DNA of 64,000 nt, from assembly GCA_032622095.1 (NCBI GenBank), contig CP136068.1, forward strand, positions 117,229,509 to 117,293,508. The letters run 5' to 3'. This document shows, one piece after another, positions 35,874 through 53,282 of this stretch. The DNA comes from Siphonodentalium dalli. Taxonomy: Eukaryota > Mollusca > Scaphopoda > Gadilida > Siphonodentaliidae. Within the stretch, counting starts at the first letter, position 1. Each line of letters opens with the position of its first letter. The translations under genes and the position numbers were made by a program. The notes beneath the pieces are model-generated. The model ran no database searches and was not told the origin of the DNA. It saw only the letters and a list, made by a program, of their open reading frames with translations.

Positions 35874-36258
35874 CATTTTTTCATTACTAATTTTAAAGTT
35901 TGTATAATTCTGACCAGAGATGACACATCGACACGAACAGAATCAATTGGTGGGGATCCTACAGTGAAAACGATTTTGTTGAAATTTATCATTTATTTTT
36001 CAAAAACAAGAACAAGAACAATGAACAATAATATATTATTATACATCAATAATATTAACAAAGAACAATAATTTATGTACAAAACAAGGTCTCAGATTTG
36101 AAGAAACTTAATTGAACATCCTATAACATCCTACAATATCCTACGCTGAATCAATAACAAAAGAGTCTATTTTGTGGAGTTGTTGACACATTCGTTGTTA
36201 TCTGGTCGTCGTCTTCTTTGCGTTGTATGTATATCAGCCGTCGATGTGCTGGTGAAGT
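35874..36258. other. Polinton left non-coding end
   Basis: AT-rich 385 bp downstream of the protease gene. The minus strand has an AATAAA at about 35,992-35,997 that could polyadenylate the long minus-strand gene block. No histone-type stem-loop is present here, unlike the right end. Confidence 0.6.
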
Positions 36259-37177: not shown

Positions 37178-38483
37178 CCAAATAGTCAGTAAGCACTTCT
37201 CTCGAAGCTGTGATCTCTATTTCACTGTCGAATTCAGCATACACCAAAACGTTGACGGCTGTAGTGAGAGCTGTCAAGAACTGAAGCTCCAAACGCAGGT
37301 TCCCTGTCTTTATAGGATGTAGATGTCCCTCGTCGCTTCCTTGGTCCGGTGTCAAGTCGAAACCCCACAAACAATAACCATTCATATATTCTTTTAAATT
37401 AATGCCAATTGATTTGTTAACACCAAACATTCCTAAAGATTGATACAAAGATAAATATGATCTGAGACATTGTTTTGTTGCGAAGTTTGGTTCAAATGGA
37501 CGGTTATGTATTGTATGACCGTCTTGACTAACTTCCAATTTATTCAAACTGAAATGTTTGAAGTGGAATGGATTGGTACCCAAATCTCCATTCATATCTT
37601 TATTTTCGACCAACGCAATAAAAAGTCTCTTTGGTAATTGTCCTTGAAATAAGTGGTCTTCAATTTTTGATCTAAGTCCAGTACTAATTGTGAAAGTTTT
37701 TATTTCTACTCGTCTGATAGGTAGTTTCATTTTTGACTGGGCAATTTCTTGATTTAATTTATTTGAGACCGCTGGAAAGAGACTAACTGTTCTGACATGG
37801 AACACTGCTGATTCGAAAACAATTTGTCCATCCTCGGAGCCAATGAGGCAAAATTTTGATGGTGATCTGTTTAATCTGATACGAATTTCAATTCCATTTG
37901 GTAAATATTTTTCTTGAAGAAACAGATCGGTGTGTAAGCGTCCGCATAGTTCAACAAATTTACTACCAGTGATCAAACTTTCTCTAGAAGTTAATCCAGC
38001 ATTAGCACCACCTTTGGTGCTCTCTTCAAATTGTTCTGCTGTATCGCCATACCACATTTCTAAATTTGCTAATTGATTATCTTTATATTCTTGAGAGTAT
38101 CCCAACAGATTTTCGAAATATGCTCCGTATGGGTAAGTGTCAGAATTCGAAGTTATCAATTTGTTGTTCAAGTAAACATCGATACTGCTGAACATGCTAT
38201 GAAAGAAATTGTTAACAGGTGCTAATTCCGTAGCAGCTACCAAATTAGTTCCATCTTTTTTTGTAATTTTGAATTTCACATAAAGATAAGATTGATTAAT
38301 ATCTGTCCACTTTTCGGTTTGAGATGGTATGACAAACTCTATCGGAGCAGAATTATTCAGCGGTGCAATAGGATGATTTTCGATCCACTGCGATTCTGAC
38401 ATTGTAGCCACCGTTGGTGGAACATGTGTTATATCAAGTTCCGATTTATTGCATTCGCATGATCCATTTACCATTTGTGCCAT
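37143..38483 (-). CDS. MCP: Polinton major capsid protein (double jelly-roll)
   Basis: A 446-residue protein of the double jelly-roll capsid family found in Polintons and adintoviruses; it would form the icosahedral shell. Recognisable segments are VYLNNKLITSNSDTYPYGAY with FENLLGYSQ (about residues 102-132), the GRLHTDLFLQEKYLPNGIEI block (about 180-200) followed by RIRLNRSPSKF, and a C-terminal beta-rich half. A worm protein of this type is catalogued as F54H12.2-like. Starts 2 bp after the stop of the upstream basic protein, with Met at 38,483. No break seen. Confidence 0.93.
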   Translation of the reverse strand: MAQMVNGSCECNKSELDITHVPPTVATMSESQWIENHPIAPLNNSAPIEFVIPSQTEKWTDINQSYLYVKFKITKKDGTNLVAATELAPVNNFFHSMFSSIDVYLNNKLITSNSDTYPYGAYFENLLGYSQEYKDNQLANLEMWYGDTAEQFEESTKGGANAGLTSRESLITGSKFVELCGRLHTDLFLQEKYLPNGIEIRIRLNRSPSKFCLIGSEDGQIVFESAVFHVRTVSLFPAVSNKLNQEIAQSKMKLPIRRVEIKTFTISTGLRSKIEDHLFQGQLPKRLFIALVENKDMNGDLGTNPFHFKHFSLNKLEVSQDGHTIHNRPFEPNFATKQCLRSYLSLYQSLGMFGVNKSIGINLKEYMNGYCLWGFDLTPDQGSDEGHLHPIKTGNLRLELQFLTALTTAVNVLVYAEFDSEIEITASREVLTDYLDGVHNTAMELL

Positions 38484-38485
38484 GA

Positions 38486-38860
38486 TTAATCAAAAATATC
38501 AAGAGCTCGACTGCTAGGATGATTTTTCGACTGACTTTTTCGGCGTTTGACAGCTGAATGATTCATTTTTGAAGTCGCTACTCTTTTTCTAGGTTTTTTT
38601 CTCGAGTTCAAAATTTGATTTTTAGCTTGTGTGCCAAAAGATTTTAAAGCTTTTTTACCTTCAGACATCAACGCTTCTTTCGGACTTTTACCTTGATTAA
38701 TAATTTCATCTGCAACACCAAAAGTGTGTTTTTTCGCAAGTTGTAAAGCTGTCCGACCAAGCGGTTTTAGAAATGGTATAGCAGATCTCATAACTGATTT
38801 GAAAATTGAACCAATACCATTACCATATTGCCGTGGTACGCCTCTATACACGGGGAACAT
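38486..38860 (-). CDS. Polinton small basic core-like protein
   Basis: A 124-residue, strongly basic protein. The N-terminus has the Gly/hydrophobic pattern YGNGIGSIFKSVMRSAIPFL, typical of small Polinton/adintovirus proteins placed between the minor and major capsid genes. The C-terminal half is Lys/Arg-rich (NSRKKPRKRVATSK). By position and composition it may be a virion core or DNA-condensing protein, loosely comparable with adenovirus core peptides; that role is inference. It lies 5 bp from the minor capsid stop and 2 bp from the major capsid start. Confidence 0.75.
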   Translation of the reverse strand: MFPVYRGVPRQYGNGIGSIFKSVMRSAIPFLKPLGRTALQLAKKHTFGVADEIINQGKSPKEALMSEGKKALKSFGTQAKNQILNSRKKPRKRVATSKMNHSAVKRRKSQSKNHPSSRALDIFD

Positions 38861-38865
38861 TGTTT

Positions 38866-39717
38866 TTAGAACTCCTCTCGTTTTCTGAAATGTAGCTTCA
38901 CCAAAGACTTACCACCGATAAACTGAATTGATTTTCCTGTGTCGCCACTTATATTTACACTAATTTTGTCAAAGTATGACTTTGAAACTGGAACATAATG
39001 TAAATTTAAAAATTCATGTTTTACATGTAATCCGTCGATATCTCTTTTACTTCTGAAAGAAACAACTCGTAAAATTTGTACTTCAACATTTCCAACAAAT
39101 GTGTAATCGGCAATATCAGAATAAACAAACATTAGATTATGACCAACATTCAAATCTACACCAAACGGAAATCTATTATTTGAATAAAAATCTTCAGAAG
39201 CGTTTTCAGTTTTGTAACCCAACTTGTGCAAAAGACATTGTGGTAATTCAATTCCTAGTTTTGTGTTACTTAAACTCTTGCGAATAATTTTCACACGTTT
39301 TGTACCTTTTGAGTACCCGATGTGAAATCCGTATTCGTTTTGCATTGCTTCTCCAAGTGTTTCATCAATTACATCTTGCATTGTATCAACTAAATCTGTC
39401 GCAGAGGTATACGAACCATTTTGTATCTGTATTTCAAGTGCATGAACGCCATCAGGTCTCCTAAATATCTTTTCTTCAAAACGATTTTGAAGAACAGACA
39501 GTAATATTGCATCAGTTGTAATCAAATTGAATTTACACGAATCCCCTGTAACATTGTATGTTTCTGAAGGTGTTATCAGTTCGGCTAATGCAACTTCCCA
39601 TTTTTCTTTATCAATTTGAACTGGTTTTGGTAATTGTACAGTAAAACAACATTGAGTATTGTTTGGATACATTACCATCGAACTGTCGCTCGGAATTGTA
39701 ATGTAGAAAGGATTCAT
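38866..39717 (-). CDS. mCP: Polinton minor capsid (penton) protein, single jelly-roll
   Basis: A 283-residue protein matching the Polinton minor capsid family, which occupies the five-fold vertices. The N-terminus FYITIPSDSSMVMYPNN and the segment KWEVALAELITPSETYN (about residues 39-55) are characteristic. So is the C-terminal DTGKSIQFIGGKSLVKLHFR block with FDKISVNISG before it. The ATG overlaps the stop of the upstream membrane protein gene by 4 bp. Intact. Confidence 0.92.
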   Translation of the reverse strand: MNPFYITIPSDSSMVMYPNNTQCCFTVQLPKPVQIDKEKWEVALAELITPSETYNVTGDSCKFNLITTDAILLSVLQNRFEEKIFRRPDGVHALEIQIQNGSYTSATDLVDTMQDVIDETLGEAMQNEYGFHIGYSKGTKRVKIIRKSLSNTKLGIELPQCLLHKLGYKTENASEDFYSNNRFPFGVDLNVGHNLMFVYSDIADYTFVGNVEVQILRVVSFRSKRDIDGLHVKHEFLNLHYVPVSKSYFDKISVNISGDTGKSIQFIGGKSLVKLHFRKREEF

Positions 39718-39977
39718 ACTTTCAAAATTTCTGCCGACTGATTTTTCAAATATTTCAAACGCGGTGTTGGTAAAATGTACCCCAAAGAACTACTGAGTAA
39801 AATTAACCACAGTTCGTTATTTTCACTTTGTAAACTTAAATGAACAATTGCTGTAGCGATTATACCAACAATTATAATAATTTGTGTAAAATATGTTACT
39901 TGATTTTTTGCAATTTTTTCTCCACAGATTTGAAATTGTGATGGAGCATCGAGACCAACTGAACCATTTTGAGACAT
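39714..39977 (-). CDS. Polinton two-helix membrane protein
   Basis: An 87-residue protein starting MSQNGSVGLDAP at 39,977, ten bases past the integrase stop. This start is preferred to an upstream Met inside the integrase gene at 40,112. After CGEKIAKNQVTYFTQ come a hydrophobic helix (about residues 32-48) and a second one (about 58-73) ending LGYILPTPRLK. This arrangement recurs in Polinton small membrane proteins beside the minor capsid gene. Function is unknown; a virion membrane or egress role is only a guess. Confidence 0.75.
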   Translation of the reverse strand: MSQNGSVGLDAPSQFQICGEKIAKNQVTYFTQIIIIVGIIATAIVHLSLQSENNELWLILLSSSLGYILPTPRLKYLKNQSAEILKV

Positions 39978-39987
39978 GTTAAAAGTT

Positions 39988-41082
39988 TTATACCAAATTT
40001 GTGGCAGGTATCCAACTGTCAAATTTTTTAGGATAACCAGCCCAATGAACTTTAATTTCTCTAACTGATTTACCAGCAACTTTTCTTGAACGTTTACCAA
40101 CAACTGATTCAATTTCGTAAACTTTATTATCTTTTATATGTTGAATTTCTTTACCATAAAATGATCCTGCGATGTTTTCACCATCTAAATCTACTAATTT
40201 GTAAGTTAATGGTGTACTTTTACAAACTCTACTAATTTTGAAAATTTCTTTTGTCCAATTTGGAAGATATCCTTTATCAAAAGTTCTCTTTGTTTTATTT
40301 ATTCTAACAAAATCTCCAACTTTCAACATCTTATCTTTTTTCGTTTTTAACTTTCCATAAAGATTTCTGGAAACTTCAATTTCATTTTCTCGAGTTACTA
40401 AAACTGGTGCCATCTTAATACTTCTATGAAAACTTTTGTTGTAAGAATTCACAAAATCGTGCAAAACATCAACGTATTTCAAAGTTTGATTATGTGTAAA
40501 ATATTTCCACATCTTTGTTTTCAATGTCCGTTGAAAACGTTCAACTATACTTGCTTTTGTCTCTGGATTCTCTGTTGTGAAAAAATGAATTTTCTTAGAT
40601 TTCAAAAATTGTAAAAATAATTTATTTTTGAATTCTGAACCTTTGTCAGATTGAAATGAAGCTGGTTTTCGTTTTGATGATTTTAGAATTTTCTGAAATG
40701 TTTTAACTAAAGTTATACCAGTTTTATCTTTAATTTGTTCAACCCATGCAAATTTTGAGAACACATCAATAACACAAAGTAAATATCTGTAATTGTCATT
40801 GTGCTTTTGCAAAGTTTGCAAATCTGCCAGATCAGCTTGCCACTGAATATCAATTCCTGCAACAATAGTTTTACGTCTGCGAAATTTCCGAACAATTGGT
40901 TTGTGCAAAGTATATGTTTTTTGCCATTGTAACCATTTTTTAACATCTGAAAGTTTAATTTTGTTATTTGTTTCTTTTGCATTTTTAAAAAGTTGATTTG
41001 CTCCACTGAAACCACCAACTTCTTTTGGATTGTAGTAAATTTCAGTTAGAAGTTTGTCAAATTTTATGTAAGTGAGGACCAT
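39988..41082 (-). CDS. INT: Polinton integrase (retroviral-type DDE with chromodomain)
   Basis: A 364-residue integrase that would insert the element, producing the 6-bp duplication seen. The catalytic core shows Asp84 in WQADLADLQ, Asp146 in FQSDKGSEF and Glu181 in SIVERFQRTLK. An SH3-like stretch (LKVGDFVRINKTKRTFDKGY) follows near residues 254-273. The C-terminal ~45 residues form a chromodomain (VYEIESVV..., IKVHWAGYPKKFDSWIPATN), common in Polinton integrases and thought to guide targeting. It overlaps the upstream gene by 19 bp. The core is intact by inspection. Confidence 0.95.
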   Translation of the reverse strand: MVLTYIKFDKLLTEIYYNPKEVGGFSGANQLFKNAKETNNKIKLSDVKKWLQWQKTYTLHKPIVRKFRRRKTIVAGIDIQWQADLADLQTLQKHNDNYRYLLCVIDVFSKFAWVEQIKDKTGITLVKTFQKILKSSKRKPASFQSDKGSEFKNKLFLQFLKSKKIHFFTTENPETKASIVERFQRTLKTKMWKYFTHNQTLKYVDVLHDFVNSYNKSFHRSIKMAPVLVTRENEIEVSRNLYGKLKTKKDKMLKVGDFVRINKTKRTFDKGYLPNWTKEIFKISRVCKSTPLTYKLVDLDGENIAGSFYGKEIQHIKDNKVYEIESVVGKRSRKVAGKSVREIKVHWAGYPKKFDSWIPATNLV

Positions 41083-41771
41083 CCTTTCAAAATAGTTTTT
41101 CTGGTTTCTGGTGTTAAAATATCAACTGAACGTTTTCTTGACTTGCCACTGATAGGAGTTGCATGAGGTGTATGAAACTCATCACCAGTGTGACCTTTTA
41201 AATGTCTTTGCATCCACAGCCATCGATCCCTGTTACCTACATAATCTTGTGGTATATTAAGTTCCCCCAATCCACGTAGGAATGTTTCATAACCAACTGG
41301 GTTAAAACCTTTTCGGTGACGAACAACATCGTTTATCAAATCAATTATATTTGATCCAGTAACTGTTTCTGTTCCATAAATTAATTGTCCACGATCATCC
41401 CATCTAAGTTTAGGATTAGTTGACAACAATGATAAAATTTGTTGTGCTTTACCACGAAATTTAGATGGCACACTTTCCAATATATGGTCACTCATTTTCC
41501 CAAAGTTTTCAGATAACTTTTGTTCAGGTAATCTGAATTTTGAATTTAAAGATTTTTGTGAAGTTTTCAATTTGTACAAATTTTCTCCAAATAACTGTGA
41601 CTTTTCTGATTCAGAAATATTTTTATCATAAACTGATTTCAATTCTTTGTAAGAATCTGAAACATTTGAAATTGCAGGATCAGGAGGTAATTGAGGTTTA
41701 TTCATTTCTGACATTTCCCATTGTTTGAAATCTTCCAACATTCTGAATGGTACAATAACCATTTTCTTCAT
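41064..41771 (-). CDS. Polinton conserved protein upstream of integrase
   Basis: A 235-residue protein of unknown function. The C-terminal part contains LRWDDRGQLIYGTETVTGSN with IIDLINDVVRHRKGFNP and a GNRDRWLWMQRHL tail, a pattern met next to integrases in many animal Polintons. The N-terminal half is polar and probably helical or coiled. The 3' end overlaps the integrase start by 19 bp, suggesting translational coupling or a shared transcript. No catalytic motif. Confidence 0.7.
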   Translation of the reverse strand: MKKMVIVPFRMLEDFKQWEMSEMNKPQLPPDPAISNVSDSYKELKSVYDKNISESEKSQLFGENLYKLKTSQKSLNSKFRLPEQKLSENFGKMSDHILESVPSKFRGKAQQILSLLSTNPKLRWDDRGQLIYGTETVTGSNIIDLINDVVRHRKGFNPVGYETFLRGLGELNIPQDYVGNRDRWLWMQRHLKGHTGDEFHTPHATPISGKSRKRSVDILTPETRKTILKGWSSLT

Positions 41772-41791
41772 ATTTATTTGAGATTTAGTTT

Positions 41792-42160
41792 TTACAAAAT
41801 ATTTTTAACAACTGCACCTAATGTTTTGCTAATCAATGGAGCAAGAAATAATAATGGTAAAAAGCCACCTTTTTTATTCAAAATTTTCTTCTTTTGTTGC
41901 AAAGGTTTGTTCTTGTCTGCAAGATATCTGATATGTTTACGCTTCGAATGTAACTTGCGGTTCTGAGCTTCATTCAGTTTTACATTACCTTTTAAAAGAT
42001 TTTGACAACATTCTGAAATGCAATCCATCACTTGTTTCGGAGCATCGTTGATCATTTTCTTTTTATATGCAGATGGAACTTTACTCATTGCAACAATCAA
42101 CTCACCATATTTTTTTATCAGCGGTGCTTTCCGGCTCTTAGTTTTTGAAGGCATCTTCAC
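41792..42160 (-). CDS. Polinton small basic protein with hydrophobic C-terminus
   Basis: A 122-residue protein. The middle is basic with a Cys pair (CISECCQNLL, about residues 47-56) and the LNEAQNRKLHSKRKHIRYLA block. The C-terminus GGFLPLLFLAPLISKTLG (about residues 98-115) is a Gly-led hydrophobic helix. Related small Polinton proteins share the Lys-rich stretch followed by GGFLPLL. A membrane-active or structural virion role is possible but unproven. Either Met1 or Met3 could start it. Confidence 0.65.
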   Translation of the reverse strand: MKMPSKTKSRKAPLIKKYGELIVAMSKVPSAYKKKMINDAPKQVMDCISECCQNLLKGNVKLNEAQNRKLHSKRKHIRYLADKNKPLQQKKKILNKKGGFLPLLFLAPLISKTLGAVVKNIL

Positions 42161-42233
42161 AGTCTAAGTAGTTGTCTCAAAATGAGCAGAAAAATTATAT
42201 GTTTCATCTTTTATCTTTTCGGATTGAACCATT

Positions 42234-42797
42234 CTAAAGCTTCGAATGCAGATTTCGATGCATCAGACAACGGCATAAATTTTGAAAATTCAAGATCAAT
42301 AACTGTTTTTTTTGTAACGGTTGATGTTGAGGGTTCTGCTGAGAAGGTATAGGTGTAAATTTAGAATGTTGATTTTGTTGAGTTTGCATCGGTGTAAACT
42401 TTGAATGATTTAGAGAAAGCTTTGTTTTACGTTTAGATTCTTTTTGATTACCTCTTTGTTGTGTTTGCTTCCGAGTAATCTTTGAACGTTTTGGAGAAAC
42501 CTTTGATTTACTTTTAGATTGTCTACCAGTTTGTTCAAATGAATTTTTCAAAAGACTTCTAATTAAAACTCCTCCAAGAAACCCACTACCACCTCGTTGT
42601 AAAATTAATTTGCGTTTTGTTTCCATATCAGTTGATCGATCAGAGATTTTTTTAAGAACATTTTTATTTCTCTGAAAAAACTTTTTTGTCTGTGATGGTA
42701 ATTTCCAATCATTTTCAAGAAATAATTCAGCTGCAAAAGTGAAGAAATTTATAATTTGTGACAGTTCATCACGACTAAACATCTCGGTGGACGACAT
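42234..42797 (-). CDS. Polinton hypothetical protein with RGG-hydrophobic motif; probable frame slip near the C-terminus
   Basis: Starts at MSSTEMFSRDEL (42,797), clear of the ATPase stop at 42,832; an upstream Met at 42,866 overlaps that gene. The N-terminal half is helical. QRGGSGFLGGVLIRSLL (about residues 67-83) resembles the GGF-hydrophobic motif of the preceding small protein. The rest is Ser/Lys/Gln-rich with repeats of the form SKFTPxxxQQ. After a run of eight A (minus strand, 42,306-42,313) the current frame loses this character. The -1 frame continues the repeat-like pattern for about 29 codons to a stop near 42,218, suggesting a one-base deletion or -1 slippage. Confidence 0.65.
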   Translation of the reverse strand: MSSTEMFSRDELSQIINFFTFAAELFLENDWKLPSQTKKFFQRNKNVLKKISDRSTDMETKRKLILQRGGSGFLGGVLIRSLLKNSFEQTGRQSKSKSKVSPKRSKITRKQTQQRGNQKESKRKTKLSLNHSKFTPMQTQQNQHSKFTPIPSQQNPQHQPLQKKQLLILNFQNLCRCLMHRNLHSKL

Positions 42798-42831
42798 GGT
42801 TCTAAAATGAAAAAAATAACAACAACTGAAT

Positions 42832-43482
42832 TTATACTTTTGAATATATGACAGGACCTCGGTCATTAGCTGTCAACCATTTATGGAAAATATCAGTTCT
42901 AATTCGCAAATAATTTTCTGTTCTAGGATGAAAATCTACTAAAATATATCCATGATTTATTGAAGTTGCATCTTCGTATGCTTGTTTCAAATGATTGGTT
43001 TGCATTTGATGAGCCAAAACTTTTATTTGATTTTTATCTCGAACGCTTTGAAATAAAACCATGTAGTGTGCATTCAAACTTATAGTTCTGCTACTTTTTG
43101 ATTTTTGGAACATGTTTTGAGTAATGTAAATTATTGAAGCATTTCGATGATGACCTTTTCTAGTAAACCAAAGCATTATTTTGTCTTCATCTTGTTCCCC
43201 CATCATGTCATCGAAAACAACAAGATGAGGAAATGATTTATCTGATACAATTTCCTCATCATCGTCTGGAATACCATCGATAAACTTAACGTTATCAATT
43301 TCTTTTATACGATTGTATGTGTCTTGCCATTCTTTGTAACACCAAACTATTTTCTTTGGTGGTGTTTGGAATAAATCGTGTTTAAATTCAATAACTTTTT
43401 TAACAAATTCTGTTTTACCTGATCCACTAGGTCCGCTGATAAAGAAATTACACGGATGTTGGAAAAGTAAAGATTCTTCCAT
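42832..43482 (-). CDS. ATP: Polinton packaging ATPase (FtsK/HerA-like)
   Basis: A 216-residue P-loop ATPase of the A32/FtsK-HerA group, expected to pump the genome into capsids. Walker A is GPSGSGKT at residues 17-24. Walker B is LVVFDDMM at about 87-94. A conserved ITQNMF sensor-like motif lies near 120-125, following HHRNASIIY. Length and motif spacing are normal for Polinton ATPases. It is in the middle of the minus-strand block. Intact. Confidence 0.95.
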   Translation of the reverse strand: MEESLLFQHPCNFFISGPSGSGKTEFVKKVIEFKHDLFQTPPKKIVWCYKEWQDTYNRIKEIDNVKFIDGIPDDDEEIVSDKSFPHLVVFDDMMGEQDEDKIMLWFTRKGHHRNASIIYITQNMFQKSKSSRTISLNAHYMVLFQSVRDKNQIKVLAHQMQTNHLKQAYEDATSINHGYILVDFHPRTENYLRIRTDIFHKWLTANDRGPVIYSKV

Positions 43483-43515
43483 GTTGTCACTTTGATGTCT
43501 AATCAGAGAGTGAAC

Positions 43516-44211
43516 TTAACGACGTGTGAATTTAGTTTTTAAACCGAAATCTCCAAAGCTGTAAATATTTCCATACATTTCAATAATCCAATTATTATAC
43601 TCTTCTATGCTTCTGTTTGTTCTGAAAATAAAAAAATCATCCCCTATAATGTTTTGAATTTTTGCATATGTTGACATTTTTTTTGTTAACAAATACCCAT
43701 CGATCCTAGGAACTGATTTAAAGGTTCCCCCAGCAAGAGGATAATGATCTTCATACTTTGTATAATGAATATAGTCATGTTCATCAAAAGTTTCTAAATC
43801 TAAATGGTGTTGATCACCACCAAATACCCAAAAATCAGATATTTTTTCAATGAGAAAAAATGTTTTGAATTTAATAAATGATTCAATATATTTTTGAGAG
43901 AAATGAGAAGATATTCTTGACTCAAGATAGGCCAATCTCTGTAAACATTCGCCGACATCACAGCATCGTAGTATTGCTTTCTTTTCTCTTTCAAACCAGA
44001 CTTCTTGTAATTCCTTCTTTATCTCTGGAATAAGCGTTGACTGTGCCACCAAATATCCATAAATCTTCTCAGCAATTTCTGGAGGTACTACTCCTGCCAA
44101 CATCTTGACATGAAATGACTCAACATCTCCATCCGTATGGGTATGTATGAATACCATTGACGAGTTTTCGTTTTGTGTACACCGATCTGAAAGTTTTGGT
44201 TTGACACTCAC
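43516..44211 (-). CDS. Polinton-associated hypothetical protein
   Basis: A 231-residue frame of unknown family between the polymerase and ATPase genes. Its first ~30 codons overlap the 3' end of the polymerase gene, so an internal Met (residue 19 at 44,157 or residue 37 at 44,103) may be the true start. Features include PPEIAEKIYGYLVAQ near residues 43-57, a helical middle with two Cys (ILRCCDVGECLQRL), and an aromatic-rich C-terminal third. No catalytic motif was recognised, so no function is assigned. Confidence 0.65.
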   Translation of the reverse strand: MSVKPKLSDRCTQNENSSMVFIHTHTDGDVESFHVKMLAGVVPPEIAEKIYGYLVAQSTLIPEIKKELQEVWFEREKKAILRCCDVGECLQRLAYLESRISSHFSQKYIESFIKFKTFFLIEKISDFWVFGGDQHHLDLETFDEHDYIHYTKYEDHYPLAGGTFKSVPRIDGYLLTKKMSTYAKIQNIIGDDFFIFRTNRSIEEYNNWIIEMYGNIYSFGDFGLKTKFTRR

Positions 44212-44912
44212 TAATCAATTGATGGTTCTTTTGTCTTTTAATTCTGGAAGGATACTCAACAACAGTTTTGAAATTTTCACGATCATTAACACATTGTACC
44301 ATTGTTTCAAAATTAACTTTTTGACTTGTGCTGTAATCAAGAGTGATACCTTTTACCTTACATTTGGTGTATCTTCTCCCATCTTTGATGTATTCATATC
44401 CGTAGTTCTTTGGCCCAAGTCCAACAAATTTGACAATCTTTGCATCTGGATGTTCGTCGCTCCATTTCCCCAATCTTCCTTCGATAGTTTTGATGTTCTT
44501 CTTTGATGGATCACTGACATACATACAGCTGTCTGTATCAAAATACAGCACTCTATCTCCAAGTTTTTCTAAAACTTTATACAATTGTAATCTTGCATAC
44601 GCTGTAACAAAAGAAGCAACAACAACATTTGCTGAATGATGAGGTTCAATATTATCTAAGATGTCAACATAATTTACCAGAATGAATTTGTCACCATCAA
44701 GAAGTGTAACATTTTGAACAATTATATTGTTACTAGTAAGCAATTCAAAATAACGTGATGGTTTATCCACATACTCTGTTTTTGACATAAGATTTCTTTG
44801 TGCATTCTTACCCCATATACAATTAATCATAATTTTAGATATTTGACGTTTTCCTGGATTCTTCTCGATGTTCTCCAATTTTATACCCTCAGCTGCATAA
44901 TAATCCTGTACA
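44120..44912 (-). CDS. POLB: DNA polymerase B, C-terminal part (after a frameshift)
   Basis: Continuation of the Polinton polymerase in a different frame, ending at 44,120. It holds motif B (KIMINCIWGKNAQR, near 44,790-44,850) and the catalytic motif C YFDTDSCMYV (near 44,530-44,560), and a thumb region ending HTYPYGWRC. Its sense frame is open upstream past the Met at 44,878 and takes over from the N-terminal piece around 44,905-44,912. A one-base loss there, or an assembly error, separates palm motif A from motifs B and C, so the gene as written cannot give a full polymerase. Its last ~90 bp overlap the next gene. Confidence 0.9.
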
Positions 44913-47778
44913 AACTTTGTTTCTGTTCTTCTGTCTCAACACCAAATGGATAACCACTACATTCCTGTTTGATCTTTAGATGTTTATCGATATAGGATTT
45001 GTATATTTCATCTGTCCAATCTGTCCAATGCCAAATTTGGTACACATCAAGTATTTTGTAGCCAACATCCATTGCTTTGAATAATTCTGGCGTGGTCCAC
45101 ACTCCGGTTATAGCTCGATCTTCTTCTGAATGGTTACATGCCTCGTTCTCATTGATGGCACAAGTGTTGCACAGAGTAAAAACCATTTTCTTGTTACAAT
45201 GAATCGGTAGAACTGGAATATACAATTTCGATGGTGGTAAAATTGTACATTTAATAAGTCCCGCATAGTCTCTAATGTGTTCTTGATCGATCTGCTCTTG
45301 GCTCAAAATTTCTGGATGTCCAACAGGGTAGAATTTATATTTGTTGCAAAATGGATACAACGAACACACATCGATGAACTTGATTTCTTTTGTGGAATCT
45401 TGATCAATTTCCTCGTACAATTTGATGGCATTTGTACGTCCACCAAACAACGCTTCTCTTGGCAAAATAGGGTCTCGATGTTTGTAGAAAGATTCCATTT
45501 GTTGTTTGAATTTCACATCCGATTTCATTCTTTCGTCGATCTGATGCTCCCAAATTGATTCAACTCTGTAACCAAGACTTTCCAGTTCATCTTTCTTCTG
45601 TTGAGTTCTTGTATATAATTCTTCCATGGTGAGCATCGTATAGGGATTCTTGTATTGTCTGTTGTTGTAACATTTTGGACATCCATGAAACAGACATCCA
45701 TTCATCTCAAAAACTGTTCTTGTGGCTTCCTCATATCCATCGACGTAGTGTCCACCAATCTTGATTTCTCCTCCATTCAAAGCATGCTTGATTGTTATCA
45801 TACGTGACAATGATATATGTTGAAGCCAACGTATCGCTTTCATGGAATAGTTTTTAGCACATGGGTATCCACCATCTGGAATGATTCCAATTGTTTTCTC
45901 TGGCATTGAATTCTTCCTCCATGCCAAATTGCAAACTTGTGCCAATGTTATTGACTCAATGAACGGGTCAATCTGTTCTGTTTCCAATATGTATTTCCTG
46001 AATTTTCCACATCCACGGCGAAGAATATCCACGTCTGATTTGCAGTACTTCTCTATCTCTTCTTGGAAGTTGAATATCGCATAATTTTCTATTTTCTCAT
46101 TGTACCATTCAAAGAATTTCTCTCGATTTTCCACGCTCATCATATCTGGTTTGTAGTAATCACAAGCCAAGTAAGGTCCAATGTAATTTTGAAACTTTGG
46201 TGAATTCGCCCAATGTGGAAAGTGTCCTTTTGCCATCTCATTCAGCTGAAAAGTTTGTGGAAATTTTGAAAGCGGCATCATCAGAAAACTCAGAGAATCA
46301 ATAACTTTCACGCTGTTGCATTTTAAACTGAGAATTTTGTTTCCATTCATGATCAGTTCTGGTTTATGAATTCCACTTTGTATGAGTGCTTGAAGTAGAA
46401 ACTGTGCATCGTATCCCTGAGCATTATGTGCTATTGCAACACATCCTTTGTGATCTTGATGGAATAACCAGTTTGTGAAGTCTGTTAAAACGTTGTCACC
46501 CTTGAATACAAATTCTCTGGAATCCGGTCCGCATGTTTCACATTTTTCTTCGATTGGTTTGCACATGCAATCTCCACAAGCGGTATGTGCAACACAGAAG
46601 TTTGGAATATGAACACCTGTGTCTTGTCTGCATTCAAAGTCAAAGAATACATATGGAATCTTTGCAGGTTTCTTTTCCGGTGATTCATATTTTGGAATGT
46701 AGCACCTGTGATCTGCTTCAACGATTTCTTTGCAATGTTTGCATTTCTTCAACCCCGCACATATATGTCTGTTTGATTTATTGATGAGAAATTCTTCATC
46801 ACAAATGTTGCATAGTTGAACCAAATCACATATTTTTCTTTTCTGTTTTCCTTCCGTCTTCAAATGGTTGTCGAAACAAGATTTACTTCTGAATGATCGT
46901 CGACACGTTCTACACTTCACCAAATTTGTGAAATTACACTGTGTCAATGACCAGCATGCACAAACAAATCTGCATCGATGATCGCCACGACTTTTGAATC
47001 CAATGTCACAGAATTCGCAGTAGTAGCTGGTGCCTAGAAATCCTTTGATTGATGTTATGGTGTCGAAGTGATTGTTGTTGTAGTAGATGTGTACACATTT
47101 GCTCTCCGAACACATTTCTGCAGGTTCAAATAGAAATCCAGCGCCAGCAAATTCATTGTGAATTTTCACAACATATTCTGGATACAATATTTCTTGAATC
47201 TTGTGGAACTCATTGATACTGCAAACTGTATCGTGTGGAATACCAGCACGGTTGAGTAGATTTTTTGCTGCATCTGTTTGTGCTGTGTATATTGATTGTC
47301 TTATTCTTTTCCATTTCTTTGACCAGCACGCAGATCCATCACTATCTGCCTTACACATTCCGACGACAATAGATCTTGCCATACACATAACATCATCAGC
47401 ATTTTCAATCCGGACAATACTTCTTTTCACTTTTGTAAGCTTGTTCTTGTCTGCAAATGGTCCATAATGTAGTGAGTGTCGTGTACCACCTTCCGGAATA
47501 TCTGTAACGAAGATTTCGAAATTGAGTGCACCGTCATGAATTGTAAAGTCTGCATTTGATTGAACCACATTTTGAATATTATCCATGAGTGTCTCACCAT
47601 TCAATTCACTGGCTTTTGTGAATGGAATGAAAATGTTCATATCAAGTCCTGGATGATTTATCGTAACTCTGATTCTTGTCTTCTCATTTGCTGAACATTT
47701 CTGTTTCAATTCTTCTGTCAACTTCTCAAATATCTCTGGAATGTTTTCGATTGGATCTGTAAATTTCTCGAATTTCAC
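44881..47778 (-). CDS. POLB: DNA polymerase B, N-terminal and exonuclease part
   Basis: A 965-residue piece of the protein-primed family B polymerase that replicates Polintons. In order: N-terminal region; a Cys/His-rich zinc-finger cluster (about residues 250-365); exonuclease motif I FFDFECR (about 379); exonuclease II HNAQGYDAQF (about 456); exonuclease III YCKSDVDILRRG (about 582); then polymerase motif A DVCSLYPF (about 806). The frame then runs off at 44,881 just after the segment where related proteins continue into motif B; the next frame carries that continuation. With the C-terminal part the gene would be about 1,215 codons, a normal Polinton length. Confidence 0.93.
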   Translation of the reverse strand: MKFEKFTDPIENIPEIFEKLTEELKQKCSANEKTRIRVTINHPGLDMNIFIPFTKASELNGETLMDNIQNVVQSNADFTIHDGALNFEIFVTDIPEGGTRHSLHYGPFADKNKLTKVKRSIVRIENADDVMCMARSIVVGMCKADSDGSACWSKKWKRIRQSIYTAQTDAAKNLLNRAGIPHDTVCSINEFHKIQEILYPEYVVKIHNEFAGAGFLFEPAEMCSESKCVHIYYNNNHFDTITSIKGFLGTSYYCEFCDIGFKSRGDHRCRFVCACWSLTQCNFTNLVKCRTCRRSFRSKSCFDNHLKTEGKQKRKICDLVQLCNICDEEFLINKSNRHICAGLKKCKHCKEIVEADHRCYIPKYESPEKKPAKIPYVFFDFECRQDTGVHIPNFCVAHTACGDCMCKPIEEKCETCGPDSREFVFKGDNVLTDFTNWLFHQDHKGCVAIAHNAQGYDAQFLLQALIQSGIHKPELIMNGNKILSLKCNSVKVIDSLSFLMMPLSKFPQTFQLNEMAKGHFPHWANSPKFQNYIGPYLACDYYKPDMMSVENREKFFEWYNEKIENYAIFNFQEEIEKYCKSDVDILRRGCGKFRKYILETEQIDPFIESITLAQVCNLAWRKNSMPEKTIGIIPDGGYPCAKNYSMKAIRWLQHISLSRMITIKHALNGGEIKIGGHYVDGYEEATRTVFEMNGCLFHGCPKCYNNRQYKNPYTMLTMEELYTRTQQKKDELESLGYRVESIWEHQIDERMKSDVKFKQQMESFYKHRDPILPREALFGGRTNAIKLYEEIDQDSTKEIKFIDVCSLYPFCNKYKFYPVGHPEILSQEQIDQEHIRDYAGLIKCTILPPSKLYIPVLPIHCNKKMVFTLCNTCAINENEACNHSEEDRAITGVWTTPELFKAMDVGYKILDVYQIWHWTDWTDEIYKSYIDKHLKIKQECSGYPFGVETEEQKQSLYRIIMQLRV

Positions 47779-47787
47779 ACCAAATTG

Positions 47788-48192
47788 TCATGATGCTGAT
47801 TTAAATTTTCTGGAAAATTTCTCCGAGTTCAGCTCCAATTTGAAATATTTTGTTGGATTGAACACAACACGCTCTCTAGCCAGACTTCTCTTTCTCTTCC
47901 CACCAATTTCTCTATTCTGTCTTCGACCGCGTCCAATCTGACCATCACTAGAACTTTCTTCACTTTCGCCTCCATCAGTTTCCATATCGCTCTCTTCACT
48001 TTCTGCCTCATCAGTTTCCATATCGCTCTCTTCACTTTCTGCCTCATCAGTTTCCATATCGCTCTCTTCACTTTCTGCCTCATCAGTTTCCATTTCGCTC
48101 TCTTCAATAACTGCAGGCCTTGGTCTTTTTCTAACAATATCTTCTTCGCTGGCGGAGTCGTCTGAAACAGGTCTTTTGATTCTCTTAAACAT
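47788..48192 (-). CDS. Acidic repeat protein upstream of POLB
   Basis: A 134-residue protein. The first 32 residues (MFKRIKRPVSDDSASEEDIV, then basic RKRPRP) are nearly identical to those of the divergent gene at 48,412. Residues about 33-80 are four tandem 12-residue acidic repeats (ESDMETDEAESE; DNA period 36 bp, about 47,965-48,100). The C-terminus is basic (GRGRRQ, GGKRKRS). It starts 93 bp from a TATAAAAG box (48,284-48,291, minus) and ends 9 bp before the polymerase start. Function unknown; a charged nuclear protein or scaffold is possible. Confidence 0.7.
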   Translation of the reverse strand: MFKRIKRPVSDDSASEEDIVRKRPRPAVIEESEMETDEAESEESDMETDEAESEESDMETDEAESEESDMETDGGESEESSSDGQIGRGRRQNREIGGKRKRSLARERVVFNPTKYFKLELNSEKFSRKFKSAS

Positions 48193-48508
48193 TTTTGTCT
48201 TGAGTTTTTGTCAGCAAAAAATATTGCGACTGGCTTCTTCGGAGTTGAAGTGTAAAGTGTATAATTACACAATTTTACACTTGCTTTTATAGCATTTTTC
48301 ATCGTGACTGCTATAAAAGCAGGTGTTAAAATTGTGTAATTATACACTTTACACTTCAACTCCGAAGAAGCCAGTCGCAATATTTTTTGCTGACAAAAAC
48401 TCAAGACAAAAATGTTTAAGAGAATCAAAAGACCTGTTTCAGACAACTCCGCCAGCGAAGAAGATATTGTTAGAAAAAGACCAAGGCCTGCAGTTATTGA
48501 AGAGAGCT
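48097..48508. promoter_or_regulatory. Palindromic bidirectional promoter with duplicated 5' coding ends
   Basis: Arms 48,097-48,293 and 48,310-48,508 are near-identical complements with a 16 bp spacer. Each arm contains TATAAAAG (minus at 48,284-48,291, plus at 48,312-48,319), a ~90 bp leader and the first 32 codons of the gene it drives. So the two divergent genes share promoter, leader and N-terminus. The arms could also form a very long hairpin. Confidence 0.85.
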
Positions 48509-48987
48509 ATATTGAGCTGCATAAAGAAGAATCTACACTACTACAGACTAGAAAAATTCAAGATAATCTTGTCGAATTGAGACAGATCTCTACTGATTTG
48601 TTTAAATTTTGTAACAAAATGCAATGGCAAGAGAAAAAAGAGAAAAACAAAGCTGATAAAAATTGGAAACCACCATATGGTTACTGTTACAAATGCGGAC
48701 AAGACTCCCATTGGTCCTTCCAATGTAAAACAGATTTCGACGACAAAAAAAATGTGAAAACTATACAAAAAAGTCTACAAGCAGTAACAATACAAGAACA
48801 AAATGCAGTTATCAAAACTGAAGAGATGTCTACAACATCAGATGTTTTCAAACAACCCCGACCTGTTGATCCTACGAATGATTCACAGAACAAATCTGAA
48901 GATAAGCATCCAGATTTTGAAAATTCCAAGAAAACTTCCAAGAAAAAGAAGCTGAGACAATTCTACATTCCAAAAACAGATAAATGA
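48412..48987 (+). CDS. CCHC zinc-knuckle protein of the Polinton
   Basis: A 191-residue plus-strand protein. The first 32 residues duplicate those of the divergent acidic protein. A retroviral-type zinc knuckle CYKCGQDSHWSFQC lies at residues 92-105 (Cys92, Cys95, His100, Cys105), suggesting nucleic-acid binding. The C-terminal half is polar and ends Lys-rich (KKTSKKKKLRQFYIPK). A TATA box lies at 48,312-48,319 and a polyadenylation signal AATAAA at 49,019-49,024. CCHC knuckles of this type occur in gag and in cellular RNA-binding proteins; the exact role here is unknown. Confidence 0.75.
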   Translation: MFKRIKRPVSDNSASEEDIVRKRPRPAVIEESYIELHKEESTLLQTRKIQDNLVELRQISTDLFKFCNKMQWQEKKEKNKADKNWKPPYGYCYKCGQDSHWSFQCKTDFDDKKNVKTIQKSLQAVTIQEQNAVIKTEEMSTTSDVFKQPRPVDPTNDSQNKSEDKHPDFENSKKTSKKKKLRQFYIPKTDK

Positions 48988-49098
48988 ATCGATACAAACA
49001 TTTGAAAATTATATTGTGAATAAATTATGAATTGAACAATCGTGTTTTGTTTTGTTTTTTTCAGCTATGAAAGAGTAACCTTTTTGGGGAATGTGGGT

Positions 49099-49114
49099 GG
49101 CCCTGAAAAGGGCC
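49099..49114 (-). terminator. Histone-type 3' stem-loop (minus strand)
   Basis: On the minus strand it reads GGCCCTTTTCAGGGCC, preceded by AAAAAC and followed by ACCCAC: the six-base-pair stem, UUUC loop and ACC-type flank of animal replication-dependent histone mRNAs. It lies 19 bp past the probable stop at 49,133. Confidence 0.75.
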
Positions 49115-49132
49115 GTTTTTCTTTTCCAGAAT

Positions 49133-49388
49133 TCATAAAAATTCTGCCAAATCAGGATATATCCCGTTGGGATTAATTGTCACAGACCAAGTAGGGTTTG
49201 ATCTGTGCGCCGCAGCAGCCTGAGCGAAGCTGTCAATTGCTGCATTGCACAGATCTTTCTTCGAGATCTGTGACAAGATCTCCACGAGATCAAGATTGCT
49301 TGGTTCTTGATCACATACTTCAGCCGATGGTCGTCGTCGAATCTCTCTTCCTCCATAGCTTCTTGAAAAATTTCTTTAGAGACGGCAT
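49133..49388 (-). pseudogene. Small Polinton right-end gene, apparently frameshifted
   Basis: Probable start ATG at 49,388, giving a basic amphipathic N-terminus (MPSLKKFFKKLWRKRDS). That frame soon stops. A second frame, shifted +1 near the CGACGACGACC repeat (about 49,320-49,345), is open to a stop at 49,133-49,135. It reads protein-like (SNLDLVEILSQISKKDLCNA near the middle) and ends just before the histone-type stem-loop. A third frame (49,180-49,431) starting at ATGTATAAAAAT is longer on paper, but its first codons are the TATA box of the promoter. Either one frameshift broke the gene or the assembly slipped. Function unknown. Confidence 0.5.
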
Positions 49389-49413
49389 AATGAATGAAGT
49401 TCACTGAAAAAGT

Positions 49414-49968
49414 GAAAATATTTTTATACATTTGACACGGGCGGTAGAGAAATCACATGTCGCATTGACGTTAAAATTGACAAATGTTTCCTGGCGTTGT
49501 GTTTTTTCAGAGACGGATCAGCATTCATATTTTTCTTGATCATTATTGCATAGCGATCAAACAAATGTTTTTTATTTCGTTAGATCATTATCTATTATTT
49601 GGTACACATGATTGATATATTTGTTACCTCGTTAGGAAAATATGGAATGTTTTTCTAGTTTTGTTTTTGGAGATGTACATATTTTATACATAAAACTGAA
49701 CACAAGAAAACATACTGAACATTTTTCTTCATCATTACAATCGATAACTTTACTTGGTCATCGTTTATGAACGAAGATGAATTCATATGTTAAAACATCT
49801 TAATTAATTGCATATACTATCATGAATTTAATCTATAACATATCGAAATAGTGAAAACTACAGATAATGCACTGTAAAGAAACACAACGTCAGGAAGCAT
49901 TTGTCATTTTTAACGTCAATGCGACATGTGCTTTCTCTACCGCCCGCGCAATCGTAATATATGTTCAA
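49414..49968. promoter_or_regulatory. Bidirectional promoter repeat, copy 1 (555 bp)
   Basis: Nearly identical to 51,025-51,579. Its ends are themselves inverted repeats: arms 49,439-49,507 and 49,879-49,945 share GGGCGGTAGAGAAA and CATGTCGCATTGACGTTAAA. A minus-strand TATAAAAATA box lies at 49,419-49,428 and a plus-strand AATATATG at about 49,956-49,963. It separates divergent genes (49,133-49,388 minus and 50,005-50,193 plus). Confidence 0.8.
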
Positions 49969-50004
49969 ACACGGCCGTGAACAATTTTTATTCTGCATTC
50001 AAAG

Positions 50005-50193
50005 ATGTCCGAAACCCCCGAACCGTTGATGTCTATACTAAGAGGAACGATAGGGCTAACACCCCAGATAATGCGGGGCGAACACGCAAAAGAAGTAACC
50101 GCCAGTGCAAAACTGGTTATGCAAATATGCAAAAAACAACAGCGTTGGAACAAAAGCAAAAGTCTCAAAAGAAAATCGTGGCGTGAACTTTGA
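50005..50193 (+). CDS. Small basic Polinton right-end protein
   Basis: A 62-residue protein starting MSETPEPLMSIL at 50,005. This start is preferred to the overlapping longer frame from 49,926 because it is preceded by the same TTCAAAG context as the plus-strand gene at 51,612 and sits at the right distance from the promoter repeat. The C-terminus is Lys/Arg-rich (KSKSLKRKSWREL). It is followed after 13 bp by two consecutive histone-type stem-loops. No family recognised. Confidence 0.55.
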   Translation: MSETPEPLMSILRGTIGLTPQIMRGEHAKEVTASAKLVMQICKKQQRWNKSKSLKRKSWREL

Positions 50194-50206
50194 TGCCATA
50201 CAAAAC

Positions 50207-50250
50207 GGCCCTTTTCAGGGCCAAAAACAAAAACGGTCCTTTTCAGGACC
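50207..50250 (+). terminator. Two tandem histone-type 3' stem-loops
   Basis: GGCCCTTTTCAGGGCC at 50,207-50,222 and GGTCCTTTTCAGGACC at 50,235-50,250, each preceded by AAAAC or AAAAAC. The second keeps the stem by a paired change (C to T matched by G to A), supporting selection on the structure. A purine-rich CAAAAAGAAAAACT about 15 nt downstream resembles the histone downstream element bound by U7 snRNA. Confidence 0.78.
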
Positions 50251-50461
50251 AACCAATTTTTTCAAAAAGAAAAACTTTTAGCATTGCTTAATAACTAATA
50301 ATGTTCTTTGTACCCTATGTTTTGTTTTGAAAAAATCACGCCACGAATAATTTAAAACAAAATATACTTGCAAATATTTGTTGTTGAATAAAATATAAAT
50401 TGAACAATCGTGTTTTTGATTTTTTCAGCAATGAAAGAGTAACCTTTTGGGAAATGTGTGT

Positions 50462-50477
50462 GGCCCTGAAAAGGGCC
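50462..50477 (-). terminator. Histone-type 3' stem-loop (minus strand)
   Basis: Minus strand reads GGCCCTTTTCAGGGCC, preceded by TTAAAAC and followed by ACACAC. It lies 23 bp past the stop of the gene at 50,500-50,988. The surrounding ~95 bp (50,383-50,477) repeats 49,013-49,114, including an AATAAA on the plus strand. Confidence 0.75.
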
Positions 50478-50499
50478 GTTTTAAAATTATCATCTGACT

Positions 50500-50988
50500 T
50501 TAACATCGTTTTGTGTTTTTCTTATATCTTGACATATCTTTCCCATGAGAACCAATAGCTTTTGCGAATTCATCACTTTTCTCTGTATCTTTAGATTCTT
50601 TACAAGGAAGACGAAATCTGACTTTTGTCTCAGTAGAAGGCTTCATGATACTTTTAGGTTCTTTTTCTTTCGCCGATAATATTTTTTCTTTTTTGATCTG
50701 TTTCTGTTCTTTCGATCTCTGAACATCATGAACCCTGATTGGTATATCTATCTCTTCTGCAACGAAACGAAGATTCACTTTTACTTCTTGATGCGTTACT
50801 TGTGTTTTCACGTCAATATCCCTGCGAAGACATCTCAGTTCATCTAAAATCGCTTTTAAAATGAGTGTATCTCCACCTATAGTCATTGTCGTATTAGCTT
50901 GGCCTGTTGACTGTGGTGCCGCATATGTATTCTGTACAACAGGATTACTGTATATCTCACTCTGAAGAAATTCTGTTAACGGATCCAT
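50500..50988 (-). CDS. Polinton right-end protein, Lys-rich
   Basis: A 162-residue protein starting MDPLTEFLQSEIYSNP at 50,988, after CAAAG as in the two plus-strand right-end genes. A longer version from 51,042 begins in the TATA box (ATGTATAAAAAT) and is unlikely. Middle residues (LILKAILDELRCLRRDIDVKT) look helical; the C-terminal half is rich in Lys/Glu/Ser. No family recognised. It is driven by promoter copy 2 and ends in a histone-type stem-loop. Confidence 0.6.
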   Translation of the reverse strand: MDPLTEFLQSEIYSNPVVQNTYAAPQSTGQANTTMTIGGDTLILKAILDELRCLRRDIDVKTQVTHQEVKVNLRFVAEEIDIPIRVHDVQRSKEQKQIKKEKILSAKEKEPKSIMKPSTETKVRFRLPCKESKDTEKSDEFAKAIGSHGKDMSRYKKNTKRC

Positions 50989-51024
50989 CTTTGATAGCAA
51001 TGCAATGTAACGTTGATCAAATTC

Positions 51025-51579
51025 GAAAATATTTTTATACATTTGACACGGGCGTCAATGAAATCACATGTCGCATTGACGTTAAAATTGACAAATGTTT
51101 CCTGGCATTGTGTTTTTTCAGAGACGGATCAGCATTCATATTTTTCTTGATCATTATTGCATAGCGATCAAACAAATGTTTTTTATTTCGTTAGATCATT
51201 ATCTATTATTTGGTACACATGATTGATATATTTGTTACCTCGTTAGGAAAATATGGAATGTTTTTCTAGTTTTGTTTTTGGAGATGTACATATTTTATAC
51301 ATAAAACTGAACACAAGAAAACATACTGAACATTTTTCTTCATCATTACAATCGATAACTTTACTTGGTCATCGTTTATGAACGAAGATGAATTCATATG
51401 TTAAAACATCTTAATTAATTGCATATACTATCATGAATTTAATCTATAACATATCGAAATAGTGAAAACTACAGATAATGCACTGTAAAGAAACACAACG
51501 TCAGGAAGCATTTGTCATTTTTAACGTCAAAGTATTATGTGCTTTCTCTACCGCCCGCACAATCGTAATATATGTTCAA
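51025..51579. promoter_or_regulatory. Bidirectional promoter repeat, copy 2 (555 bp)
   Basis: Same length and almost the same sequence as 49,414-49,968. The terminal inverted arms have decayed slightly (GGCGTCAATG replaces GGCGGTAGAG; AAAGTATTATG replaces AATGCGACATG). TATAAAAATA on minus at about 51,030-51,039; AATATATG on plus near 51,567-51,574. It drives unrelated genes: 50,500-50,988 (minus) and 51,612-52,079 (plus). Confidence 0.8.
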
Positions 51580-51611
51580 GACGGATCTTCAGACTTATTC
51601 TACATTCAAAG

Positions 51612-52079
51612 ATGACTGCTGTAAACATAACAGATCTTGACGAGATAATGGTACAGGGGGTATACTGTAAAGCAGTGTGCGGCGGCGAAGAAATATCTCT
51701 GTTTTGGAGGGCACTCAGCGTTGCGGTTTACGGGACGACCGATGGATGGATGGTTCTGAGAGATGCGGCAGTTGACCTGTACTACGCAGAGAGTGACGAA
51801 CTTGGTGCGTCGGCACAAGATTTACGGCGCACACCACTTTTGGCTGAATCAAGATTGATGGTTGAATTAGCGGCCACTGTTATACAGCGACCTATCGTCA
51901 TGTTTGATGCTACCAAAGGCGGCTACAAATCAACACCAAGATTCAAGTCATCAATAACTCTAGTGTGGATCCCACACGTTTGCCACGAGCATTATTGTGA
52001 ATGCGAAATATGGATGAGGCGAGGAGACAAATCAATTGAAGTTTTGGCGAACAAAGAAGTTCAATGTGGCGGATTCTAA
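51612..52079 (+). CDS. OTU-like protein, nucleophile Cys position replaced
   Basis: A 155-residue protein from MTAVNITDLDE at 51,612 (same TTCAAAG start context as 50,005); an in-frame Met at 51,537 lies inside the promoter repeat. Residues 24-36 (GGEEISLFWRALS) and the following VYGTTDGWMVLRDAAV resemble the catalytic-loop helix of OTU-type cysteine proteases, with Ser29 where the Cys would be. A Leu-rich helix, VMFDATKGG near 96-104, and a late His-Tyr (CHEHYCECEIW, 124-134) match the OTU order. OTU enzymes remove ubiquitin; this one may be inactive or use another residue. A histone-type stem-loop follows 19 bp after the stop. The family call is by eye and moderate. Confidence 0.55.
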   Translation: MTAVNITDLDEIMVQGVYCKAVCGGEEISLFWRALSVAVYGTTDGWMVLRDAAVDLYYAESDELGASAQDLRRTPLLAESRLMVELAATVIQRPIVMFDATKGGYKSTPRFKSSITLVWIPHVCHEHYCECEIWMRRGDKSIEVLANKEVQCGGF

Positions 52080-52098
52080 ACTATAACAAAAATAAAAC

Positions 52099-52114
52099 GG
52101 CCCATTTCAGGGCC
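52099..52114 (+). terminator. Histone-type 3' stem-loop with downstream purine element
   Basis: GGCCCATTTCAGGGCC, preceded by AAAAC and followed by ACCAAA. The closing T-A pair of the usual stem is A-A here; the other five pairs hold. GAAAAGAAAAACTC begins 12 nt downstream, again like the histone downstream element. Confidence 0.72.
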
Positions 52115-52193
52115 ACCAAATATTCGAAAAGAAAAACTCTTGATTGCTAATTGATATTTTCCAAAGTGAGATTTTCCTTTTGAAAAAAAAAAT

Positions 52194-52236
52194 TCTAAGT
52201 CCATTTTCATTTTTTCCGATCAGAAATATCACATCA
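52194..52236 (-). repeat. Polinton inner terminal inverted repeat, right
   Basis: Exact complement of 35,831-35,873. Confidence 0.95.
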
Positions 52237-52257
52237 ATGACAGGAATATCTATCCTC

Positions 52258-52663
52258 AGGGGGGAACTATGGCCCAGTACCCATCAGTGGGGGGCACTAT
52301 GGCCCAGTACCCCCCAGTGGGGGCACTATGGCCCAGTACCCCCCAGTGGGGGGCACTATGGCCCAGTACCCCCCAGTGGGGGGCACTATGGCCCAGTATC
52401 GAATACTGGACCATAGATCGTCCAGTATTCGATACTGGGCCATAGTGCCCCCCCCAGTGGGGGGCACTATGGCCCAGTATCGAATACTGGACGATCTATG
52501 GTCCAGTATTCGATACTGGGCCATAGTGCCCCCCACTGGGGGGTACTGGGCCATAGTGCCCCCCACTGGGGGGTACTGGGCCATAGTGCCCCCACTGGGG
52601 GGTACTGGGCCATAGTGCCCCCCCACTGGGGGGTACTGGGCCATAGTGCCCCCCATTACTACT
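52258..52663. repeat. Polinton right inverted repeat: palindromic minisatellite
   Basis: About ten ~30 bp units in two orientations around two palindromes (CAGTATCGAATACTGG pairs near 52,395-52,440 and 52,475-52,525). The outer end CCATTACTACT at 52,653-52,663 mirrors the left AGTAGTAATGG. The right array is about twice as long as the left. Confidence 0.9.

Positions 52664-53212: not shown

Positions 53213-53282
<70 letters not shown>

Follow-up and report, generated by a model that had tools for sequence, protein, structure and literature searches.

Does a mobile element end some of its own genes with the 3' signals of animal histone mRNAs, and what would such signals do there? The question is raised by a Polinton in the scaphopod Siphonodentalium dalli, found in a 64,000-nucleotide (nt) window of contig CP136068.1 (117,229,509–117,293,508, forward strand; all positions below are those of the window). 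A sequence-only reading of this DNA had pointed to five hairpins next to stop codons in the right-end part of the element, and all five were confirmed at the positions and on the strands claimed. They follow the genes of a right-end cassette, which consists of four genes with a single open reading frame (ORF) each, arranged in two divergent pairs that each surround a copy of one promoter repeat. Three of the five sites are histone-type 3' stem-loops according to the Rfam model RF00032 at its gathering cut-off. The sequence and predicted structure of the signals are demonstrated, as are their position, orientation and spacing. The best explanation, to which we give a probability of about two in three, is that the four genes form a small co-regulated set whose mRNAs would be processed by SLBP and the U7 small nuclear ribonucleoprotein (snRNP), would not be polyadenylated and would belong to S phase.

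Stem-loops at the ends of the cassette genes

A gathering-level Rfam search (cut-off for RF00032, 34 bits) of the whole 64-kb window returned three matches, all of them to RF00032, and no other family passed. The matches lie at site 49099 (49074–49119 minus, 42.6 bits, E 2.9e-9), site 50462 (50438–50482 minus, 40.1 bits, E 2.5e-8) and site 50235 (50230–50276 plus, 37.1 bits, E 3.4e-7). The other two sites were picked up below gathering in a permissive search of 34000–54000, namely 52099 (52094–52140 plus, 29.8 bits, E 5.5e-5) and 50207 (50202–50227 plus, 22.2 bits, E 0.037). No further RF00032 match was found among the 43 listed in this region up to E 5. The remaining matches are each under the cut-off of their own family, and many come from microRNA models that hit the terminal repeats.

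The strict histone stem-loop consensus, GGYYYTTHTHARRRCC, occurs four times in the 64 kb, twice on each strand. A relaxed consensus, in which position 6 was loosened after the sites had been seen, matches exactly the five sites, all within 49.1–52.1 kb. When the element was dinucleotide-shuffled 1000 times, this pattern occurred on average 0.004 times (at most once), and 1000 shuffles of 48501–52250 never produced it. A hairpin fold is predicted for all five sites (z −2.57 to −4.61), with a 6-bp stem and a 4-nt U-rich loop at four of them. AAAAC stands upstream of every hairpin, as the sequence-only reading had it. Outside the element, a lone GGCCCTTCTGAGGGCC palindrome at 28868–28883 has no AAAAC flank and no gathering-level match to RF00032.

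Downstream of the hairpins, AAAAG is found 12–14 nt away at four of the five sites and on both strands, at the spot where the RF00032 consensus turns A-rich. Shuffling the downstream 60 nt of each site gave AAAAG at 10–15 nt in 1.3–2.1% of cases, a figure to be read with the facts that the motif was picked after inspection and that the modules carrying it are partly duplicates. The purine-rich element that had been claimed for the plus-strand sites is present, as AAAAG, at 50235 and 52099 and absent at 50207, and the minus-strand sites have AAAAG too.

The hairpins stand in transcript sense at the ends of all four cassette genes, and their orientation follows the transcript at five of five sites. 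The gap between the stop codon and the first hairpin is 13 nt for gene 2, 22 nt for gene 3 and 19 nt for gene 4. For gene 1 it is 18 nt, as measured only from an open frame without a start that runs to a stop ending at 49133. Gene 2 has a second hairpin that begins 28 nt beyond the first. The 15 other ORFs that were examined, among them the divergent pair at 47788–48987, have no such hairpin after them.

End signals, duplication and competing explanations

Poly(A) signals were searched as AATAAA and ATTAAA only. The nearest downstream AATAAA is 2316 nt away from site 49099 and 469 nt away from site 50462, so that the hairpin is the sole end signal recognised near the minus-strand genes. The plus strand has one AATAAA at 50387, which is 136 nt beyond the second hairpin of gene 2, and one at 52091, between the stop codon and the hairpin of gene 4 and 8 nt upstream of 52099. 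From these positions gene 2 may have a fallback poly(A) signal, and gene 4 is ambiguous. Another plus-strand AATAAA, at 49019, lies just beyond the gene at 48412–48987, which has no hairpin. Poly(A) signals next to histone stem-loops are known in animals: a passage of PMC1924863 describes C. elegans histone genes that carry poly(A) signals by the hairpin, yet have mRNAs that end at the hairpin, and cryptic downstream poly(A) sites are used in Drosophila Slbp mutants according to a passage of PMC2781718.

The AATAAA motifs at 50387 and 52091 weigh against a histone-like control of the cassette, and so do several other results. The sites lie on duplicated modules, with 87% identity over 120 nt for the minus-strand pair, 80% over 56 nt for the plus-strand pair and 72–93% over 28–65 nt between minus and plus modules, and therefore do not represent five independent events. 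Two of the five sites score below the RF00032 gathering cut-off. Because of an A.A pair, 52099 has a 5-bp stem and a 6-nt loop, and 50207 has no downstream element; the second hairpin comes after it instead. Covariation in the stem amounts to one pair; the compensatory change that had been proposed does exist, at 50235, but 97 of 500 shuffles reach the same level and it is not significant alone. Neither promoter has an exact match to the patterns used for E2F, CCAAT and octamer sites. The frame of gene 1 that starts at the candidate ATG 49388, the first one past the TATA box, closes at 49320 (22 aa, amino acids), and the frame that runs on towards the stem-loop has no start, so that gene 1 is probably frame-broken in this copy and the cassette copy may be partly dead. 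In a third frame, an 83-aa ORF (49180–49431) extends from the TATA box itself to a point 65 nt short of the stem-loop. Finally, the replication and morphogenesis genes of the element are without the stem-loop signal.

The duplication raises an alternative, in which the 3' end of a host histone gene was captured and then duplicated with the cassette. The hairpins would then be true histone elements with a minor role, and the transcripts would mainly be polyadenylated downstream. We consider this unlikely. The duplicated modules fit it, and the plus-strand genes could make use of the AATAAA motifs at 52091 and 50387, yet the minus-strand genes have no poly(A) signal nearby and one stem change is compensated. 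A further point comes from an ungapped comparison of minus-strand with plus-strand sites. AAAAC is shared by all five and the hairpin matches at 14–16 of 16 bases; agreement falls to 6–12 of the 35 bases upstream and to 2–4 of the 8 bases from +6 to +13. The comparison is no test of selection, and an indel would lower the match of the flanks, so that it may understate their similarity. It suggests that identity between the strands is concentrated in AAAAC and the hairpin. These are the bases that SLBP recognises, and the conservation therefore coincides with the recognised bases, a pattern that passive duplication alone would not explain.

Viral hairpins of another kind are also known at gene ends, and the transcripts of the cassette might be polyadenylated at the hairpins in a Sputnik-like manner. 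Short hairpins right past the stop codons of a related element class and the AATAAA ahead of 52099 would agree with this. It appears improbable to us, as the sites match the histone loop, its flanks and its downstream spacing beyond a mere palindrome, and as hairpins are absent from the 15 other ORFs examined. Still less probable is a role at the DNA level, in which the hairpins would serve as markers for recombination or replication and their placement at gene ends would be a by-product. The right end is indeed rich in inverted repeats, but the hairpins follow the transcript at five of five sites and their loop is conserved, although a DNA cruciform would not need the loop. Chance palindromes can be rejected (a shuffle mean of 0.004 per element vs. 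five sites, and Rfam E-values down to 2.9e-9).

The cassette genes, their promoters and the surrounding element

The coordinates of the cassette, its stem-loops and the element are given in Table 1. The two copies of the promoter repeat (49414–50007 and 51025–51614) are 96% identical over 594 nt. Each has a 70-nt element inverted at both ends, with 79–93% identity between opposite ends, and since this element is found at all four promoter ends, one proximal type of promoter is common to the four cassette genes. TATA-like boxes are found 40–51 nt ahead of the start codons (for gene 1, ahead of the candidate ATG). TGACGT and GGGCGG are present in both promoters.

Table 1. Positions of the Polinton, its right-end cassette genes, promoter repeats and stem-loops in the window.
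Feature	Position	Strand	Remarks
Polinton	35622..52663	.	17,042 bases; ends AGTAGTAATGGGGGG / reverse complement
Gene 1	49133..49388	-	candidate ATG 49388; TATAAA at 49428, 40 nt before ATG
Gene 2	50005..50193	+	62-aa basic ORF; TATATG at 49958
Gene 3	50500..50988	-	162-aa ORF; TATAAA at 51039
Gene 4	51612..52079	+	155-aa ORF; TATATG at 51569
Divergent promoter repeat, copy 1	49414..50007	.	inverted 70-nt arms 49438–49507 / 49877–49946, 93%
Divergent promoter repeat, copy 2	51025..51614	.	70-nt elements 51049–51118, 51488–51557
Stem-loop after gene 1	49099..49114	-	GGCCCTTTTCAGGGCC, then ACCCA; AAAAG 14 nt downstream
Stem-loop 1 of tandem pair after gene 2	50207..50222	+	no ACC flank; no AAAAG at 12–14 nt
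Stem-loop 2 after gene 2	50235..50250	+	GGTCCTTTTCAGGACC, compensated pair; AAAAG 14 nt downstream
Stem-loop after gene 3	50462..50477	-	GGCCCTTTTCAGGGCC; AAAAG 13 nt downstream
Stem-loop after gene 4	52099..52114	+	GGCCCATTTCAGGGCC, A.A at loop-closing pair; AAAAG 12 nt downstream

Genes 2, 3 and 4 have no match to histones or any other Pfam family up to E 10. A scan of the three proteins for LxCxE found one motif, LPCKE in gene 3, followed by several charged residues. LxCxE-type motifs in other DNA viruses bind Rb. The motif in gene 3 is only a lead, since one such motif in the ~4000-odd residues of the element is about what chance would give by a rough estimate. Gene 4 had been considered as a possible OTU-type protease without the catalytic cysteine, an idea to which Pfam up to E 10 and the PDB sequences gave no support. 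The best PDB matches (E 0.05) were to ribosomal protein L3 and are taken as chance, and a single-sequence structure model was uninformative (mean pLDDT, predicted local distance difference test, 42.4). A search of PHROGs gave nothing below E 0.049.

The element is identified as a Polinton from its Pfam matches together with its terminal inverted repeats. It contains a PolB (E 4e-36), an rve integrase (E 1.5e-11) whose chromodomain is slightly under the cut-off, and an A32-type ATPase (E 1.3e-8); an adenovirus-type cysteine protease is marginal (E 0.00058, 20.0 bits vs. a cut-off of 21.3). The ORFs 37143–38483 and 38866–39717 have no Pfam match; by gene order they are candidate capsid genes (double jelly-roll capsid protein and penton). 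The terminal inverted arms (35622–35666 and 52619–52663) are identical at 45 of 45 nt, and CACACA borders the element on both sides. These arms and flanks bound the element; as CACACA lies within CA repeats, a target-site duplication is not certain. The near-identical ends suggest a recent insertion.

Some other features of the element were seen as well. The PolB region (44120–47640) is apparently split between an ORF of 919 aa, the one checked with Pfam, and an ORF of 236 aa in another frame, so that a frameshift or an intron seems to interrupt the gene. The terminal repeats (35622–35827 and 52259–52663) are built from tandem units of ~30 bp (GGGGGGCACTATGGCCCAGTACCCCCCAGT-like) with internal palindromes, for example one at 52289–52623 in the right repeat with 165-nt arms that are 100% complementary and 5 nt apart. 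An inverted repeat at 48089–48515 (arms of 189 nt, 98%) lies between the two ORFs of the divergent pair at 47788–48987. Both proteins of this pair start with MFKRIKRPVSD, and neither ORF has a stem-loop after it.

Relation to known systems and a proposed mechanism

The cassette resembles the 3' ends of metazoan replication-dependent histone mRNAs in the sequence and loop of the hairpin, the A-rich 5' flank, the ACC-type 3' flank, the A-rich downstream element at RF00032 spacing and the short 3' untranslated region (UTR). It differs from them in one site with a mismatched closing pair and in one gene with tandem hairpins. Animal histone genes also occur as divergent pairs, and the single-ORF genes of the cassette share this arrangement. 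Unlike histone genes, genes 2–4 are without any match to histones or to another Pfam family, and the whole cassette lies in a mobile element. The element itself has the terminal inverted repeats, PolB, rve-chromo integrase, A32-type ATPase and adenovirus-type protease of Polintons/Mavericks, and departs from them in the histone-type 3' ends of its right-end cassette; among the papers looked into, such ends are mentioned only in the PMC12220804 inventory described below.

The sequence-only reading knew of no such 3' ends in Polintons. No description of them on Polinton genes was found in the literature searched, which had subscription papers and the adintovirus paper (Starrett et al., 2021) outside it. 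In a word search, "histone" and "stem-loop" were absent from the Polinton papers PMC8097293, PMC11071308 and PMC4642659, and PMC5799277 has "histone" only within the title of a reference. The claim of novelty has to be qualified by an RNA-gene inventory in PMC12220804, whose relevant passage counts six matches to the histone 3'UTR stem-loop among 8300 genomes of polinton-like viruses (PLVs) and virophages, none of them in cryptophyte PLVs. The count is undiscussed in that passage, and hosts, genes and positions are not stated there. Like the sites described here, these matches are at the Rfam gathering level (presumably for RF00032) and in a related element class.

The Sputnik virophage offers another parallel. 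A passage of PMC6723459 describes a mimivirus-specific hairpin polyadenylation signal at the end of 16 Sputnik genes. As in the cassette, the hairpin stands at gene ends, and a small virus borrows the 3'-end machinery of another system; unlike the histone-type element of the cassette, it is described there as serving polyadenylation and as particular to the giant virus.

Relatives of the element were also sought in viral contigs with the PolB, capsid-like, ATPase and integrase proteins and with hairpin and PolB-motif patterns, and none was confirmed; as single proteins reach only close relatives and the patterns are exact, these scans say little on hairpins in other Polintons. The PolB pattern hit one stretch in the genome contigs (from a Planctomycetia genome record), presumably by chance.

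That the element borrows the histone-processing system of its host had been suggested from the sequence alone. The parts of this suggestion that hold are the histone-type stem-loops, their position at gene ends in transcript sense and a downstream element at histone-like spacing. From these signals we infer, as the likeliest reading, the use of SLBP and U7, the lack of poly(A), the S-phase timing and its benefit. Host SLBP would bind the stem-loop, the U7 snRNP would pair with the downstream element, and CPSF73 would cut a few bases past the hairpin. The resulting mRNAs would be non-polyadenylated, would accumulate in S phase and would be destroyed afterwards. The cassette proteins would in this way be confined to the period when the host replication environment serves an element with its own PolB. 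In its full form, which we rate as slightly better than an even chance, the proposal is a histone-mimic regulon: four non-histone genes in two divergent pairs, with histone-like control at both ends, would be processed by host SLBP and U7 and would yield their proteins only during host replication.

If this is true, a virus-like element would contain genes that do not encode histones yet are naturally subject to the histone 3'-end pathway, and these would be a natural set of non-histone substrates for it. A mobile element that uses the pathway would show that it can be hijacked. It would also offer a testable account of the way in which Polintons couple some of their genes to host DNA replication.

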